Shown here one piece after another: positions 20,548 through 29,808 of a DNA stretch of 29,808 bases. The notes under the pieces are model-generated. The model saw only the letters and a program-made list of their open reading frames with translations. It was not told the DNA's origin and made no database searches. Location of the stretch: the IMG/VR virus record IMGVR_UViG_3300010354_000401, positions 1 to 29,808 of that record; one strand, written 5' to 3'. Each line of letters begins with the position of its first letter. Within the stretch, counting starts at the first letter, position 1. This DNA comes from a virus. A program made the translations under genes and the position numbers.

Positions 20548-22398
20548 TTATGATAATCTTAGTTTTGATATATCCACAACAGTAACATCTATATCGGAAT
20601 CTTCCAATATTAACATTTGATTTCTAAGAGCTATGATATCATTGTATTTTGGTGTTATGAAGAATGTAATATAATTTTGATTATTTGGTATAGAACTAAC
20701 TAACAAATCCTGTATAGTTATGGTTCCATTCTCATAAAAAACTGTGCCTATCGAATCATTTAAAATAACTTTTACGCCAGTGGAAGAAATATAGTACAAT
20801 ACTATTTTTCCTCGACCATCATCCGCCAAAGATACCAAATTATTATTAAAATAGAATTGAGAGCTGGTTATAGAAAATACAGAATTGGCAGAATCTCCGG
20901 TATCTATTTCGTTATTTAAAACTATAGATATTTGATTTCTGGAGTTTAATGTTGGTATAATTTTATATTTTATACCAACATCCGATATATTACTAACTAT
21001 TGAAGCATCTGCCGCATCGATATATTTTGATAGCGTTGAAAATCTAAAATCTGAATCAAACCCAGAAATATTTTCTTCCTTAAATGTTTGTATAGCTGCA
21101 TTTACCTTGGATTTTATAGAATCTGCACTAAGAACAGTTTTTCCGGAGTTATAATTTACCTGTGTAGTCAATGATAAACCTATATATTCTGGTTCAACTA
21201 TTATTACTTCCAAGGAAACCAAGTTTCTACTTCTAATAGAATTTATAATTGATGTCTTATCATCTAAATTTAAAGAGGTTCCAGTTTTAGGTTTAATAGC
21301 ACAAAATACTTTTCCATATTCAGGAGGAACATTTTCTTCTCCACCCCAAACTCTAACATATTCAGCTAAAGATATGTCTTTTAAAATTAAAGTTTCATAA
21401 TCATTTTTGGTAACAGCACGATTTTGAGATTCATAAAATCTAGGAGCCAAAAGTTTAACCGATTCTATGGTTTCTGGTGCTGCGTATCCACTAGCTGAAC
21501 TTAATGTAGTAGCAGATGATGTGGCTGCTGATGCTATAGTCATTAACGCCGGATTGTCTAACGAAGTGATAAGACTTCCTGTTTTAAAAACCGAAGCACC
21601 ATCTGCTCCATCTCCGGTTGATGCAATATACTCTATTGAGACTATATTTCCATCAACTAATCCTTTTCCTACTATATTGTCTCCGAAAACAATCTCGTAT
21701 AAATCTCCATCAAAATTATATGTTTCTATGAAATAAGCTGGAGAATTTGAATCTAATAAATTTATATCTGTATTTGGTAAAAATGTAGTAAAAGCGGAAC
21801 TATTTGCGTTGTCTCTAACAGTAACCAATATGGTAGAAGTATCCACTCCACTGTTTGGTATAACATACTTTTGCTTTATTGGTAAGGTGGTATCTACTGT
21901 ATAAGAATGAGTAAATCTTTTACCTTCAACCAACTCAACATTTCTGGCTATAAAGGTTCTTGTTCCAATTTTTTCAAAAAATACAGCCACTCTAGGGAAG
22001 AAGGTGTATCTTGTATCATTGGATGTAGTATAAAATTCTTGATTTTTTGATAGTGCAAAATTAGTAGGAACCAAATCTGCGTGAGCATCGCTTTGGAAAG
22101 TAACTTGAAAATCAATTTTGGCTTTTATTGAAGTGGTGGACCTAGGAGTATATCCCAAATGCTTTGCTCGGGAAAAAACATTTTCTTTTATAGCCGCACT
22201 GTCCAAAAACATTTCATTGGCGACCATGTTTAAGTAGAATGAATTGTAGGCGGTATTATACGCTAAAACGTCTAGCAATACCGACATTGAAGATCCATCA
22301 AAGTTATAGTCTTTAAATTTGTCTTGAGATTTTAAAAATGTTTTAAGATTCTGTTTTATTAGTGCAAAATCCAATTCGCTATATTTTATTTCGGACAT
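20548..22398 (-). CDS. gp6: Baseplate wedge protein gp6
   Basis: 616 residues (T4 gp6 has 660). The N-terminus matches the gp6/baseplate J family: YSELDFALIKQNLKTFLKSQ, FDGSSMSVLLDVLAYNTAYN, SFYLNMVANEMFLDSA and KHLGYTPRS. The middle has AVTKNDYETLILKDISLAEY and VFCAIKPKTG, the typical J-like core. In T4, gp6 dimers form the inner ring of the baseplate, bind gp25 and gp53, and control the hexagon-to-star change on contraction. The ATG overlaps the gp25 stop (TAATG), so the two are translationally coupled, which fits their direct contact in the wedge. Confidence 0.93.
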   Translation of the reverse strand: MSEIKYSELDFALIKQNLKTFLKSQDKFKDYNFDGSSMSVLLDVLAYNTAYNSFYLNMVANEMFLDSAAIKENVFSRAKHLGYTPRSTTSIKAKIDFQVTFQSDAHADLVPTNFALSKNQEFYTTSNDTRYTFFPRVAVFFEKIGTRTFIARNVELVEGKRFTHSYTVDTTLPIKQKYVIPNSGVDTSTILVTVRDNANSSAFTTFLPNTDINLLDSNSPAYFIETYNFDGDLYEIVFGDNIVGKGLVDGNIVSIEYIASTGDGADGASVFKTGSLITSLDNPALMTIASAATSSATTLSSASGYAAPETIESVKLLAPRFYESQNRAVTKNDYETLILKDISLAEYVRVWGGEENVPPEYGKVFCAIKPKTGTSLNLDDKTSIINSIRSRNLVSLEVIIVEPEYIGLSLTTQVNYNSGKTVLSADSIKSKVNAAIQTFKEENISGFDSDFRFSTLSKYIDAADASIVSNISDVGIKYKIIPTLNSRNQISIVLNNEIDTGDSANSVFSITSSQFYFNNNLVSLADDGRGKIVLYYISSTGVKVILNDSIGTVFYENGTITIQDLLVSSIPNNQNYITFFITPKYNDIIALRNQMLILEDSDIDVTVVDISKLRLS

Positions 22399-22853: not shown

Positions 22854-25289
22854 CTAAGATAATTTATCATTATATGGTCCAAACTTACATTGATGCCGCT
22901 CTGAGCTATCCAATATAAGCATAGGTCTTCCATTTACTATCCAGAATAACTGTTTAGGATAACTGGCTCCTGGCTTAGACCATCTGGCTAATTGTCTCAC
23001 ACCATCTTCAAACATATCCATTTTGGTTGGAGTATCAATTAATTTTCCTGGGATATGAACAGGTCTAACAACCCGCCATTCAGTAATAGCGCCGCTAGGA
23101 TCTTCATATTTAATCAATACAGACTCTAATGCTCCAGTTGGAATAGCTTCTCTTAATTCGTGTGAACCCATGGTGGCACTAAGAGTTACTAAATTACCAT
23201 TACTATCAGATACAGGTTTCCAAACGTCTCCTACAACTCCATTGGGTATGAAAAACCCATATTTAGGTCCACCATCACCAGAAGATAGTGTCTTTTTCAG
23301 TGTGTCCTCAATTAATTCATTATTTTTATCATCATCCGAATTTTCAATTTCACTAGGAGGTATAACAACGGGTGGAGTAAGTAGCGGTGGTATAGTAAGA
23401 GGAGGTATAAGAGGAGCTGGTCCGGGACTCAATCCACCCACAAAATTTCCAGTAAAAGTATTGGATCCTATAGTTAAACTGGTAATTGCAGTGGCGGAAA
23501 GAGATATGAAAGCGGATCCATAAACAAAGCTATTATATACACTATTCATACTAGGAGCGGAAACATCAGCCGCGGTAATAAAACCAGCAACATCTAATCC
23601 AGGCGCATGAAAAGTTGCTGGGGCTCCATCTGTTTTAATATTAACTTTAGGAGCAATTAAATCTATACTATCTTCGGAAATTAATTGAATTTTTTTAGCC
23701 GATTTTATTTTAACTGGTCCGCCGGTTGTGTTGATATAAACACCCTCAGCTATTGTTCTCCATTCAGATCCTCCAATACTTTCTGTAAAATCACTCTCTA
23801 TTAAAGAAGTTCTATTTTTAACTCTTTCAGTCATATCCCCTACCGCGTCAAGAGTTACATTACCGCCAACAGATGAGTTTAAATCCGAGCCAACCTGCTG
23901 ATTTAAATTTGATGTGGATTGCAAGTTTATATTTTGTCCAGATTTTAATTTTATTCCAGTTTTTGCGTCAACATGATATGTTTTTCCCGTTGAGTTGAAG
24001 TAATCCTCATATATTATATTATATTCGCATTTTACTACTCTATTTACTTCATCACCAGATGGATGAACTTCATTGAATGTTCCGCTTCTGTGATATCTGT
24101 GGAGTCTTTCTGCTCCTGGAGTGTCGTCAACCTCCATTACATGCCCAGATTCGCTTTCGTAAACGTGATTGTATGGATATACAGCATTATATGGAGTAGG
24201 AGGTTCAATAAATGATGTTGGTGTGGATTCTGATCCACCCACAGTATTGCCAGAATATCCAGCACCTTCTATTGGGGTTAGCTTTTGTTTTTTTAAGCCT
24301 ACTATTGTTTGTTCTATGTTTTCGTTGCGACTAAGCCTAGAGGTTGAAGGCTCATTTAATCTATCTGTTAAGGGATAAGATGAGGCGGGAACTTGAGGAA
24401 TTATATCGGCATATCCATCAAAAAATTCACCACCAGCCACAATTTGTCTTATTAAAAGCTCGGCATCATCCTCATTATATTCACCGTTTTTATCAACATC
24501 AAACTTTGATTTTGTTATATCAAAAGTTTCACGCAATTCTCCAAACGCTAAATTTGTTCCAGGTAAAATGTTATCATTTGCAAATCGTGACGCGGTTTCT
24601 GTTAGACCATTTTCTAAAATATCTAAACTTAAAAGATCGGTTAATTCTGTTATTTTACTAACAACAAAACTAACAGCCTTGTTTAATAGACCCTTTACCT
24701 CATCGGTAATTTCATCCGCAATTTCAATAATTTCATTTACTGCGGAAACTATTCCTGTAGGAAGTTCAGATAGTTTTAATATTTCCTTATCCAAAAATAG
24801 CGCATCAATAATTCGTATTAGAGATGGTATAATATCTTCGGGTGGATCCAATTTTGCAACAAGTCTAAGAAAAGAAACCTTTGTTAAAAATGGTTCCGTT
24901 GGTTGAGTAGAAGTCATGCTAGGTGGGCGAGGTGTTGATACAAGCTCTTCCGGAGTGGTAGGATCCGAAAATCCTGTGGCTGGATCAGCAGCTTTCTCGT
25001 CTATTCCTGGAATATAACCTATAACAATAGGCTTTTGTGCATCAGGTCCATCAAGAAAAAATCCCCAACACCAATCACCTTCTTTGAATCCAACCGGATT
25101 TCTTCCATTATCAATGGGTAAACTAGGTAATGCCCAAGGAAGATCAGCAGTTGGTAGTATTGTTTTGTCATCGGTGTGCCATCCAAATATGCGTACACGA
25201 ACACGACCTAGAAATATAGGATCTTTTCTATCTTCAACAACACCTTTCCACCAAATAAATCCATCTTTACCAAAGAAATTTGATTCCAT
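22854..25289 (-). CDS. gp5: Baseplate central spike protein gp5
   Basis: 811 residues from the ATG at 25289; an in-frame TTG at 25298 is less likely. Residues 1-115 are the gp5 OB-fold: FFGKDGFIWWKGVVEDRKDP, GRVRVRIFGWHTDD, LPWALPSLP, GFFLDGPDAQKPIVIGYIPG. T4 gp5 carries a lysozyme domain next; here that place is a helical stretch (about 130-330) with no catalytic E/D/T pattern and with one EF-hand-like loop, FDVDKNGEYNEDD, near residue 263. Residues about 375-620 form the gp5 beta-helix needle (GTFNEVHPSGDEV, IKLKSGQNINLQS, SEDSIDLIAPKVNI). A proline-rich linker (616-650) and a further domain of about 150 residues follow. Role: puncturing the outer membrane. Confidence 0.92.
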   Translation of the reverse strand: MESNFFGKDGFIWWKGVVEDRKDPIFLGRVRVRIFGWHTDDKTILPTADLPWALPSLPIDNGRNPVGFKEGDWCWGFFLDGPDAQKPIVIGYIPGIDEKAADPATGFSDPTTPEELVSTPRPPSMTSTQPTEPFLTKVSFLRLVAKLDPPEDIIPSLIRIIDALFLDKEILKLSELPTGIVSAVNEIIEIADEITDEVKGLLNKAVSFVVSKITELTDLLSLDILENGLTETASRFANDNILPGTNLAFGELRETFDITKSKFDVDKNGEYNEDDAELLIRQIVAGGEFFDGYADIIPQVPASSYPLTDRLNEPSTSRLSRNENIEQTIVGLKKQKLTPIEGAGYSGNTVGGSESTPTSFIEPPTPYNAVYPYNHVYESESGHVMEVDDTPGAERLHRYHRSGTFNEVHPSGDEVNRVVKCEYNIIYEDYFNSTGKTYHVDAKTGIKLKSGQNINLQSTSNLNQQVGSDLNSSVGGNVTLDAVGDMTERVKNRTSLIESDFTESIGGSEWRTIAEGVYINTTGGPVKIKSAKKIQLISEDSIDLIAPKVNIKTDGAPATFHAPGLDVAGFITAADVSAPSMNSVYNSFVYGSAFISLSATAITSLTIGSNTFTGNFVGGLSPGPAPLIPPLTIPPLLTPPVVIPPSEIENSDDDKNNELIEDTLKKTLSSGDGGPKYGFFIPNGVVGDVWKPVSDSNGNLVTLSATMGSHELREAIPTGALESVLIKYEDPSGAITEWRVVRPVHIPGKLIDTPTKMDMFEDGVRQLARWSKPGASYPKQLFWIVNGRPMLILDSSERHQCKFGPYNDKLS

Positions 25290-25317
25290 AAATAGCAATA
25301 CAATAAAATTATATCAC

Positions 25318-28415: not shown

Positions 28416-28661
28416 TTATGCTATAAAATCTTGCCAATCATCTGTATCTTTTATTTTTCCAGTTTCTATGAAAAATGAAACTCTCAAAAACATCCAACGA
28501 AATCTATACACTTTTAAATCCGGTTCATAAATCCATTCATCTGCATAGGTAGGTATATTCTTAAATGTGGGAATAAAGTTCCATCCCATGGGGTTTATTG
28601 TTATGGTAATAACAACATTGGAGTTTTTTATTCTATAGAGAATAGTTTTCAATAATTCCAT
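28416..28661 (-). CDS. Hypothetical small phage protein
   Basis: 81 residues, aromatic and basic (INPMGWNFIPTFKNIPTYAD, EWIYEPDLKVYRFRWMFLRV, SFFIETGKIKDTDDWQDFIA). No family recognised. Its ATG (28661) is preceded by AAGGG about 10 bases upstream and lies inside the last codons of the 89-residue gene (29-base overlap), suggesting translational coupling. Confidence 0.72.
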   Translation of the reverse strand: MELLKTILYRIKNSNVVITITINPMGWNFIPTFKNIPTYADEWIYEPDLKVYRFRWMFLRVSFFIETGKIKDTDDWQDFIA

Positions 28662-28902
28662 CTTGTAATCCCTTATCTAATATTCTACCCCAGCTTTTTG
28701 TATCACACTCTTGTCCTAGATTACCAAACTTTTCAGCATGTTCTAAAATTTCCGAGCAATATAATTGTTTGTCGGATTCAGGCAGTCTAGCCCATCTGGA
28801 TAATATTCCATCAACAACCACATCAACAACATAGGTTCTTCTACCTAATGCATATCTAAAAGCGCAAAATAGTATAATATTATTATCACTTAATTCATTC
28901 AT
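28633..28902 (-). CDS. Conserved phage protein (AFRYALGRRTYVV motif)
   Basis: 89 residues. The N-terminal motif ILFCAFRYALGRRTYVVDVV and the following WARLPESDKQLYCSEILEHA segment, plus GQECDTKSWGRILD, occur in a group of small uncharacterised phage proteins (AFRYALGR-TY-V-x-x-V...W-x-x-L). Function is not known. ATG at 28902 with AGGAAAT upstream. It directly follows the adenosyltransferase gene (11-base gap), so it may be co-transcribed with it. Confidence 0.78.
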   Translation of the reverse strand: MNELSDNNIILFCAFRYALGRRTYVVDVVVDGILSRWARLPESDKQLYCSEILEHAEKFGNLGQECDTKSWGRILDKGLQDGIIENYSL

Positions 28903-28913
28903 TGTATTATTTC

Positions 28914-29501
28914 CTATCTATTAAAAACGTGCTCGATCTTCTCACTATCAAATATATCATATCTTGATAAAGCAAACAACAAATCACTTAATCTATTAAG
29001 ATATATTGGAAGATTTTTATCCCAACGATTAGCATCTTCAACTTCCAAAGAGTGAAGAGAATTTAAAAGCCAAATACTTCTCTCGGCTCTGCGACAAACA
29101 GTTCTTGCTATGTGTAAATAGGAATTTAAAATTGTTCCACCCGGAACAACACAGGAATTTAATTCTGGAATTGACTCACACAACTTATCTATCCAATTTT
29201 CTAGGAAATTTATATTTTCCTCGGTGATAACTTTTATTGCATCCGTAAATAGACTTGGAGAAGTAGCAATAATATTGCCAATATTAAATACATCGCTTTG
29301 AAGAATCAAAAGTAGCTCGACTAAACTTCTATTGTATTTTGTCTCTAGTACAGTACGAACCAAACCCAAATAAGCATTAAGCTCGTCAATGTCACCGATC
29401 GCATCGACACGAATAGAGCATTTTTCGATTCTATCGCCTCCGACAAGATGTGTAGTACCTTTGTCACCATTTTTAGTGTATAGTTTATTAATTTTTCCCA
29501 T
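28914..29501 (-). CDS. pduO: ATP:cob(I)alamin adenosyltransferase, PduO type
   Basis: 195 residues, full length for the family. Transfers the adenosyl group of ATP to cob(I)alamin, making adenosylcobalamin. Motifs: YTKNGDKGTTHLVGG (8-22, ATP binding), IGDIDELNAYLG (35-46), VVPGGTILNSYLHIARTVCR (118-137) with RRAER at 137-141 (ATP and salt-bridge arginines R133 and R137), and YLNRLSDLLFALSR (167-180). All catalytic segments known from Lactobacillus reuteri PduO and human MMAB are present, except that the phenylalanine equivalent to L. reuteri F112, which lies against the lower face of the corrin ring, is C117. A phage metabolic gene, possibly feeding a class II ribonucleotide reductase; none is in this window. 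Confidence 0.93.
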   Translation of the reverse strand: MGKINKLYTKNGDKGTTHLVGGDRIEKCSIRVDAIGDIDELNAYLGLVRTVLETKYNRSLVELLLILQSDVFNIGNIIATSPSLFTDAIKVITEENINFLENWIDKLCESIPELNSCVVPGGTILNSYLHIARTVCRRAERSIWLLNSLHSLEVEDANRWDKNLPIYLNRLSDLLFALSRYDIFDSEKIEHVFNR

Positions 29502-29547
29502 ATTATACTCACGTTAAAAAATTAAGAACTCAAAAATTCAATATCGC

Positions 29548-29555
29548 TATTTATC
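29548..29555 (-). promoter_or_regulatory. Late-promoter-like octamer GATAAATA
   Basis: One mismatch from TATAAATA, 46 bases before the adenosyltransferase ATG, in the gap after tRNA-Leu. If used, the gene would be expressed late, which is unusual for nucleotide metabolism. Confidence 0.35.
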
Positions 29556-29578: not shown

Positions 29579-29663
29579 TGCCCAAGGTCGGACTCGAACC
29601 GACACGGGATTTCTCCCCCGGGATTTTAAGTCCCGTATGTGCTACCAATTTCATCACTCGGGC
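29579..29663 (-). tRNA. tRNA-Leu (anticodon UAA)
   Basis: Class II tRNA with a long variable arm. Minus-strand fold: acceptor GCCCGAG/CTTGGGC, D loop with AATTGGTAGCA, anticodon stem CGGGA/TCCCG with loop CTTAAAA giving anticodon TAA, variable arm GGGG...CCC, T arm GTCGG TTCGAGT CCGAC, discriminator A (typical of Leu). It reads UUA, the main leucine codon in AT-rich genes. No CCA is encoded. Confidence 0.95.
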
Positions 29664-29691: not shown

Positions 29692-29700
29692 TTAAAACAC

Positions 29701-29808
29701 CAAACCTTAGTACACCACCTCCAAACCTTAGTACACCACCTCCAAACCTTAGTACACCACCTCCAAACCTTAGTACACCACCTCCAAACCTTAGTACACC
29801 ACCTCCAA
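29701..29808. repeat. 21-bp tandem repeat, five full copies, running off the window
   Basis: A 21-base unit starting caaaccttag and ending accacctc repeats without change at 29701, 29722, 29743, 29764 and 29785, with three bases of a sixth copy at the edge. There is no spacer variation, so it is not a CRISPR array. 21 is a multiple of three, so some frames stay open (for example a NLSTPPP heptad on the plus strand), but no start codon or ribosome-binding site is seen. The 37 bases between tRNA-Leu and the repeat hold only the -10-like hexamer. It may be a phage iteron/terminal repeat, or the unresolved end of a contig. Confidence 0.95.

Follow-up and report, generated by a model that had tools for sequence, protein, structure and literature searches.

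Our preferred reading is that a T4-like phage carries a PduO-type adenosyltransferase, most likely to supply adenosylcobalamin for a phage class II RNR, and that in this enzyme a cysteine (C117) is a private, probably less efficient replacement for a phenylalanine; we put the probability of this reading at roughly 60%. The gene lies near the end of an IMG/VR record of 29,808 bases, which was analysed over its whole length and is called the window here (Table 1). The evidence comes from the enzyme and its phage setting, from the rarity of cysteine at this position and from viral relatives in which pduO sits beside class II RNR genes.

Table 1. Features of the window discussed in the text
Feature	Position	Strand	Details
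Baseplate wedge protein, T4 gp6-like	20548..22398	minus	37% to its top annotated match, the baseplate wedge subunit of Methylophilales phages Melnitz
Baseplate hub protein, T4 gp5-like	22854..25298	minus	phrog_430 (3e-81), Pfam Gp5_OB
89 aa gene, phrog_11947, function unassigned	28633..28902	minus	Next downstream of pduO
pduO, PduO-type ATP:corrinoid adenosyltransferase	28914..29501	minus	195 aa, ATG start
Codon 117 of pduO, TGT = Cys	29151..29153	minus	Aligned with L. reuteri F112 (alignment)
tRNA-Leu (TAA)	29579..29663	minus	Directly upstream of pduO; ARAGORN, Rfam RF00005
21-bp tandem repeat	29700..29808	.	5.2 copies, 100% identical; Tandem Repeats Finder

An apparently complete PduO in a T4-like phage fragment

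The PduO ORF is coded on the minus strand, the plus strand of the same interval having stops throughout, and the motifs that the earlier note had described as intact (KNGDKGTT, GDIDELN, PGGT, RRAER and YLNRLSD) were all located in its translation. In a Pfam profile search the protein matched PF01923 with E = 4.9e-50 (170 bits against a cut-off of 24), and it reached 154.9 bits with the NCBIfam equivalog domain model TIGR00636 (cut-off 108.45), so the assignment is not due to chance. An AlphaFold2 model of the monomer (mean pLDDT 90.8) has five long helices corresponding to the PduO five-helix bundle. When this model was compared to the PDB with Foldseek, the top 26 matches were all PduO-type adenosyltransferases; human, Lactobacillus reuteri, Bacillus and Mycobacterium enzymes came first, and the human and L. 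reuteri enzymes were the best. Enzymes of this type are homotrimers with the active site between subunits, and they adenosylate cob(I)alamin. The ATP-site and catalytic residues TKxGDxG, K27, D39, R133, R137, E140 and N169 are present and are invariant or nearly so among 95 sequences, with K27, R133, N169 and R170 invariant throughout the homologue set. D39 corresponds to L. reuteri D35, R137 to L. reuteri R132 and human R190, and E140 to human E193. Judged by sequence, the protein is probably a working and ordinary member of its family. Searches of PHROGs v4 returned no matches for the seven viral PduO proteins searched.

No end repeats were found in the record, which is probably a fragment. 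The gp6-like baseplate wedge protein identifies it as part of a T4-like myovirus, and a tRNA-Thr (ARAGORN, Rfam) is present in addition to the tRNA-Leu. Upstream of the tRNA-Leu and pduO, the 21-bp repeat runs off the end of the record and is probably the reason that assembly stopped. A match to the T4 late promoter (GATAAATAG, 29547-29555) lies upstream of pduO but is no more than expected by chance.

Because pduO is found at the record end beside a tandem repeat, and because at least one INPHARED 'phage' record matching pduO is bacterial DNA, we considered that the gene might be host contamination or part of a chimera. This is very improbable, however: pduO shares strand and spacing with the phage genes that follow, and its closest homologue belongs to another T4-like phage and far exceeds the bacterial ones found in similarity. 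That phage also has a relative of the gene adjoining pduO in the window (42%, tblastn). Together with a base composition like that of the rest of the window, this sister and the common neighbour gene led us to reject host contamination. The earlier note had taken the gene to be phage-encoded and apparently complete, and the profile matches, fold and T4-like contig agree on both points.

The sister enzyme (L148) is the nearest PduO in the tree (55% identical; support 100/99) and is encoded on a 59-kb contig, IMGVR_UViG_3300035663_000017 (G346). ORFs of this contig, read by eye, include homologues of the T4 clamp, clamp loader and gp46/47, a gp17-like terminase and a gp18-like tail sheath, and the sister pduO therefore belongs to T4-like phages rather than to host DNA. 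The gene is directly followed by thyX. Among other T4-like relatives, pduO was absent from the 166 loci tested and from 18 of the relatives' whole contigs.

The INPHARED matches (15 records) were rejected as examples of cultured phages with pduO: the one examined in detail, the annotated record H3, is clearly bacterial (trpB, trpC and btuB), and most of the other 14 lack annotation. The GenBank entry CAKLQH020000002.1 (L181; 254 kb), labelled 'Acinetobacter phage', has trp genes and btuB around pduO and looks like a bacterial chromosome.

Cysteine at the position of L. reuteri F112

The earlier note had read a cysteine directly before VVPGG and equated it with F112 of L. reuteri PduO. The residue was confirmed from the ORF, and HMMER alignments with solved chains, including wild type, F112A (3gai) and F112H (3gah), placed it at that position; 'VKKAILPGG' of the F112A chain, for example, aligns with 'LNSCVVPGG' of the window. 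Human F170 lies in the same motif. The alignment sets no other phenylalanine at the F112 position, and the window enzyme has C117 instead of the lower-face phenylalanine. Of the known active-site positions that were mapped, this is the only one at which the window enzyme departs.

Cysteine proved to be very rare here. Across 95 distinct homologues the F112 position held 93 Phe, 1 Trp and 1 Cys, the last being the window itself. Among homologues not selected by a Phe pattern the proportion was 71/73, the rest being the window Cys and one Trp, and among viral homologues so chosen it was 19/21. Scanning IMG/VR with the pattern C-x-x-P-G-15 aa-RR[AT]ER gave no contigs, compared to 43 for the Phe version, in scans that may leave out the window's own record. 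For 297 Bacteroidota genomes, a pattern covering codons that begin with T at this position yielded at least 150 matches; of the 150 listed, 148 had Phe (148/148 of those that were PduO-like), while the other two (TGT in G280 and TCT in G311) have no PGG motif and are unlike PduO. A pattern search of 299 Pseudomonadota genomes gave no Cys match. Cysteine as a common family residue was rejected on the basis of the 71/73 Phe and the lack of a second Cys in these scans, and the alternative that Cys is both common and neutral was not borne out. Phe at the F112 position is near-universal, yet not needed for membership of the PduO family. A distant viral family member (L137, 706-1215) has Trp there.

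Nor does the residue mark a clade, a point that the earlier note had listed for checking: the sister phage enzyme has Phe (codon TTC), which excludes Cys as a clade marker. Given this Phe and that of the rest of the family, Cys is neither common nor clade-specific.

Possible consequences of the replacement

Published work on this position offers a guide to what C117 might do. In human ATR, F170 is 3.6 Å from the cobalt, and the lower face is closed off by hydrophobic side chains (PMC8633584). According to passages of a review (PMC6257451), the F112A and F112H variants of L. reuteri PduO alter cobalt coordination: F112A remains active but slower, with a catalytic efficiency about 80% lower with base-on cobalamin, while F112H, which ligates the cobalt, loses four orders of magnitude of efficiency. 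On the strength of these mutants, loss of efficiency is the default expectation for C117; they point to impairment of the enzyme and not to novel chemistry. Slower catalysis with cobalamin is the simplest forecast, and a gain with base-off-binding corrinoids is possible.

C117 could be neutral or damaging, or it could be an artefact of sequencing. The call depends on a single base in a single metagenomic contig, and since TGT is a single base from TTT, a sequencing error is possible. It is conceivable, though in our judgement somewhat doubtful, that the codon reflects such an error, or one of assembly, or else a private and mildly harmful mutation that has no adaptive significance, the phage PduO being ordinary in other respects. 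Consistent with this, Cys at the F112 position was seen in no further virus contig and the sister has Phe. Among columns with conservation of 95% or more, two departures occur in the window enzyme (L71V and F117C) and one in the sister (A139T); a single departure of this kind is therefore nothing out of the ordinary for a protein. A relative-rate comparison between the two was not significant, and relaxed evolution of the window PduO was rejected as an explanation. On the other side, the ORF is intact in the record and retains every other motif, and L119V near C117 and W193F, a C-terminal aromatic, also depart from the family norm, so the change could be co-adapted.

The earlier note had proposed that the enzyme may use a different displacement chemistry, accept other corrinoids or bind cobalt through the thiol. 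C117 would then be adaptive, altering displacement of the lower ligand, suiting base-off corrinoids such as pseudocobalamin or cobinamide, or ligating cobalt through its thiol. The F112 position does decide the coordination state, as the distance of human F170 (PMC8633584) and the F112A and F112H variants in the review passages (PMC6257451) indicate, and C117 is the only one of the mapped active-site residues to have changed. We nonetheless think this quite unlikely, as no second instance was seen in the homologue set or in the IMG/VR, Bacteroidota and Pseudomonadota scans, and the efficiency lost by cobalt-ligating F112H (PMC6257451) suggests that a ligand at this position is likely harmful. 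We give even less credence to the stronger form, in which C117 has been selected to create an adenosyltransferase without the Phe wedge, specialised for base-off corrinoids or working via a transient lower-face Co-thiolate.

We favor the view that C117 is a real but private active-site change, with a base error also possible. It would then be a lineage-private swap for the phenylalanine that normally covers the lower corrin face, probably lowering the efficiency with which the lower base is displaced. Such a change may be tolerated if a brief surge of cofactor is enough for the phage or, alternatively, if the host corrinoid already binds base-off.

Viral pduO genes beside class II RNR genes

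A module of pduO and class II RNR, in some cases with thyX, recurs in several virus lineages. Of about 48 contigs with viral pduO, 15 distinct ones also encode an adenosylcobalamin-dependent class II RNR, and in 14 of these 15 the two genes are on the same strand and within 522 bp. In one (L002), a NrdJ (TIGR02504, 449.9 bits, above the cut-off) adjoins pduO, the match ends being 10 bp apart; in another (L123, 10001-13021), pduO, an RTPR-type class II RNR and thyX are consecutive on one strand; and in twelve podovirus-like contigs a single small gene separates RTPR from the pduO that follows. RTPR lies 7.5 kb from pduO in L003 and elsewhere in the contig in two pduO contigs beyond the 15 (G338 and G356). 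No class II RNR was detected in many other viral pduO contigs, many of them short, and it is absent from the contigs of the L115/L128-like and L142-like pduO groups.

These contigs had further features. The small gene between RTPR and pduO in L140, L145, L153, L157 and podovirus-like relatives encodes about 125 aa starting with MKVCVVGSRSLDSADK. In a second viral group (L115, L125 and L128), pduO follows a DHH-like or short gene and precedes a NUDIX-like gene. In L003 (17965-20436), the class II RNR is interrupted by an intein that includes a LAGLIDADG-like domain. A terminase-like gene of 1037 aa on the sister phage contig (L300; G346 36011-39124) contains a stretch resembling this intein, and this T4-like terminase is therefore probably intein-bearing.

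Class II enzymes also occur in large T4-like relatives of the window phage: three contigs of 145-173 kb (G006, G007 and G009) encode an RTPR-type RNR (E 7.5e-87 to 2.2e-98), with neither pduO nor the RNR small subunit NrdB. Assignment to class II has been wrong for some cyanophage RNRs (PMC9531940). With 240-330 bits, the phage RTPRs found here stay under the curated cut-off of 340, but they match RTPR far better than NrdJ_Z and are accompanied by no small-subunit gene. We found no description of a viral pairing of pduO with class II RNR in the literature, which was covered in part, and the combination in viruses of an enzyme that makes adenosylcobalamin with an RNR that uses it is little described so far.

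A proposed role during infection

During infection, the PduO of this T4-like phage would turn host cob(II)alamin and ATP into adenosylcobalamin, which would most likely feed a phage-encoded class II RNR of the RTPR type that in turn makes dNTPs for phage DNA. Searches for nrdJ or other RNR genes found none in the 29.8 kb of the window, itself a fragment, and we infer that the gene lies in the missing part of the phage genome. The nearest contigs by gp6 (46%; G003, G004 and G005, all partial) have neither pduO nor RNR in the sequence examined. The demand for adenosylcobalamin that the earlier note had envisaged gains indirect support from related viruses, both those with pduO beside class II RNR and thyX and the large T4-like relatives with class II RNR.

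Some viral pduO contigs are without a detected class II RNR, and PduO might instead serve a host adenosylcobalamin enzyme, or carry or store the cofactor. Against this, the same-strand neighborhood with class II RNR and thyX is repeated in other viruses and pduO and thyX are adjacent in the sister phage, and we regard such roles as unlikely.

If the pairing is right, some phages go beyond depending on B12 for DNA synthesis and bring the last enzyme for its usable cofactor form, and any host with unadenosylated cobalamin would become a better factory for the phage. The pairing also offers a testable mechanism for the idea, raised in passages of a study of B12-dependent virioplankton (PMC10547690), that these viruses alter B12 use during infection. 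Cys117 would be a rare natural variant at a residue to which the formation of four-coordinate cob(II)alamin is attributed.

Comparison with known systems

The window enzyme shares its family, five-helix bundle (TM 0.83-0.90 to the human and L. reuteri enzymes), ATP-site motifs and the D35 and R132 equivalents with L. reuteri PduO (2nt8, 3ci1 and 3ci4; F112 variants 3gai and 3gah). It differs in being 34% identical in structural alignment, in having Cys for F112 and an extra loop before YLNRLSD, and in lacking an aligned counterpart to the C-terminal F187 tail. Human ATR (MMAB; 2idx, 6d5k and 6d5x) likewise has the same family and fold and the R190 and E193 equivalents, but is 31-33% identical, and Cys replaces its F170. 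The sister phage enzyme is alike in its T4-like setting, identity and place in the tree, whereas it has Phe at 117, a shorter loop and the usual Trp near the C-terminus. PduO of the viral modules (L002, L123 and the L139/L140/L145/L153 group) belongs to the same family as that of the window phage, but there the RNR is beside pduO, compared to none in the window fragment, and all have Phe at the F112 position. The B12-dependent virioplankton with RTPR are likewise phages relying on an adenosylcobalamin-dependent RNR; the passages found of that study (PMC10547690) suggest a possible increase in B12 uptake or production by viruses, and PduO is not mentioned in them.
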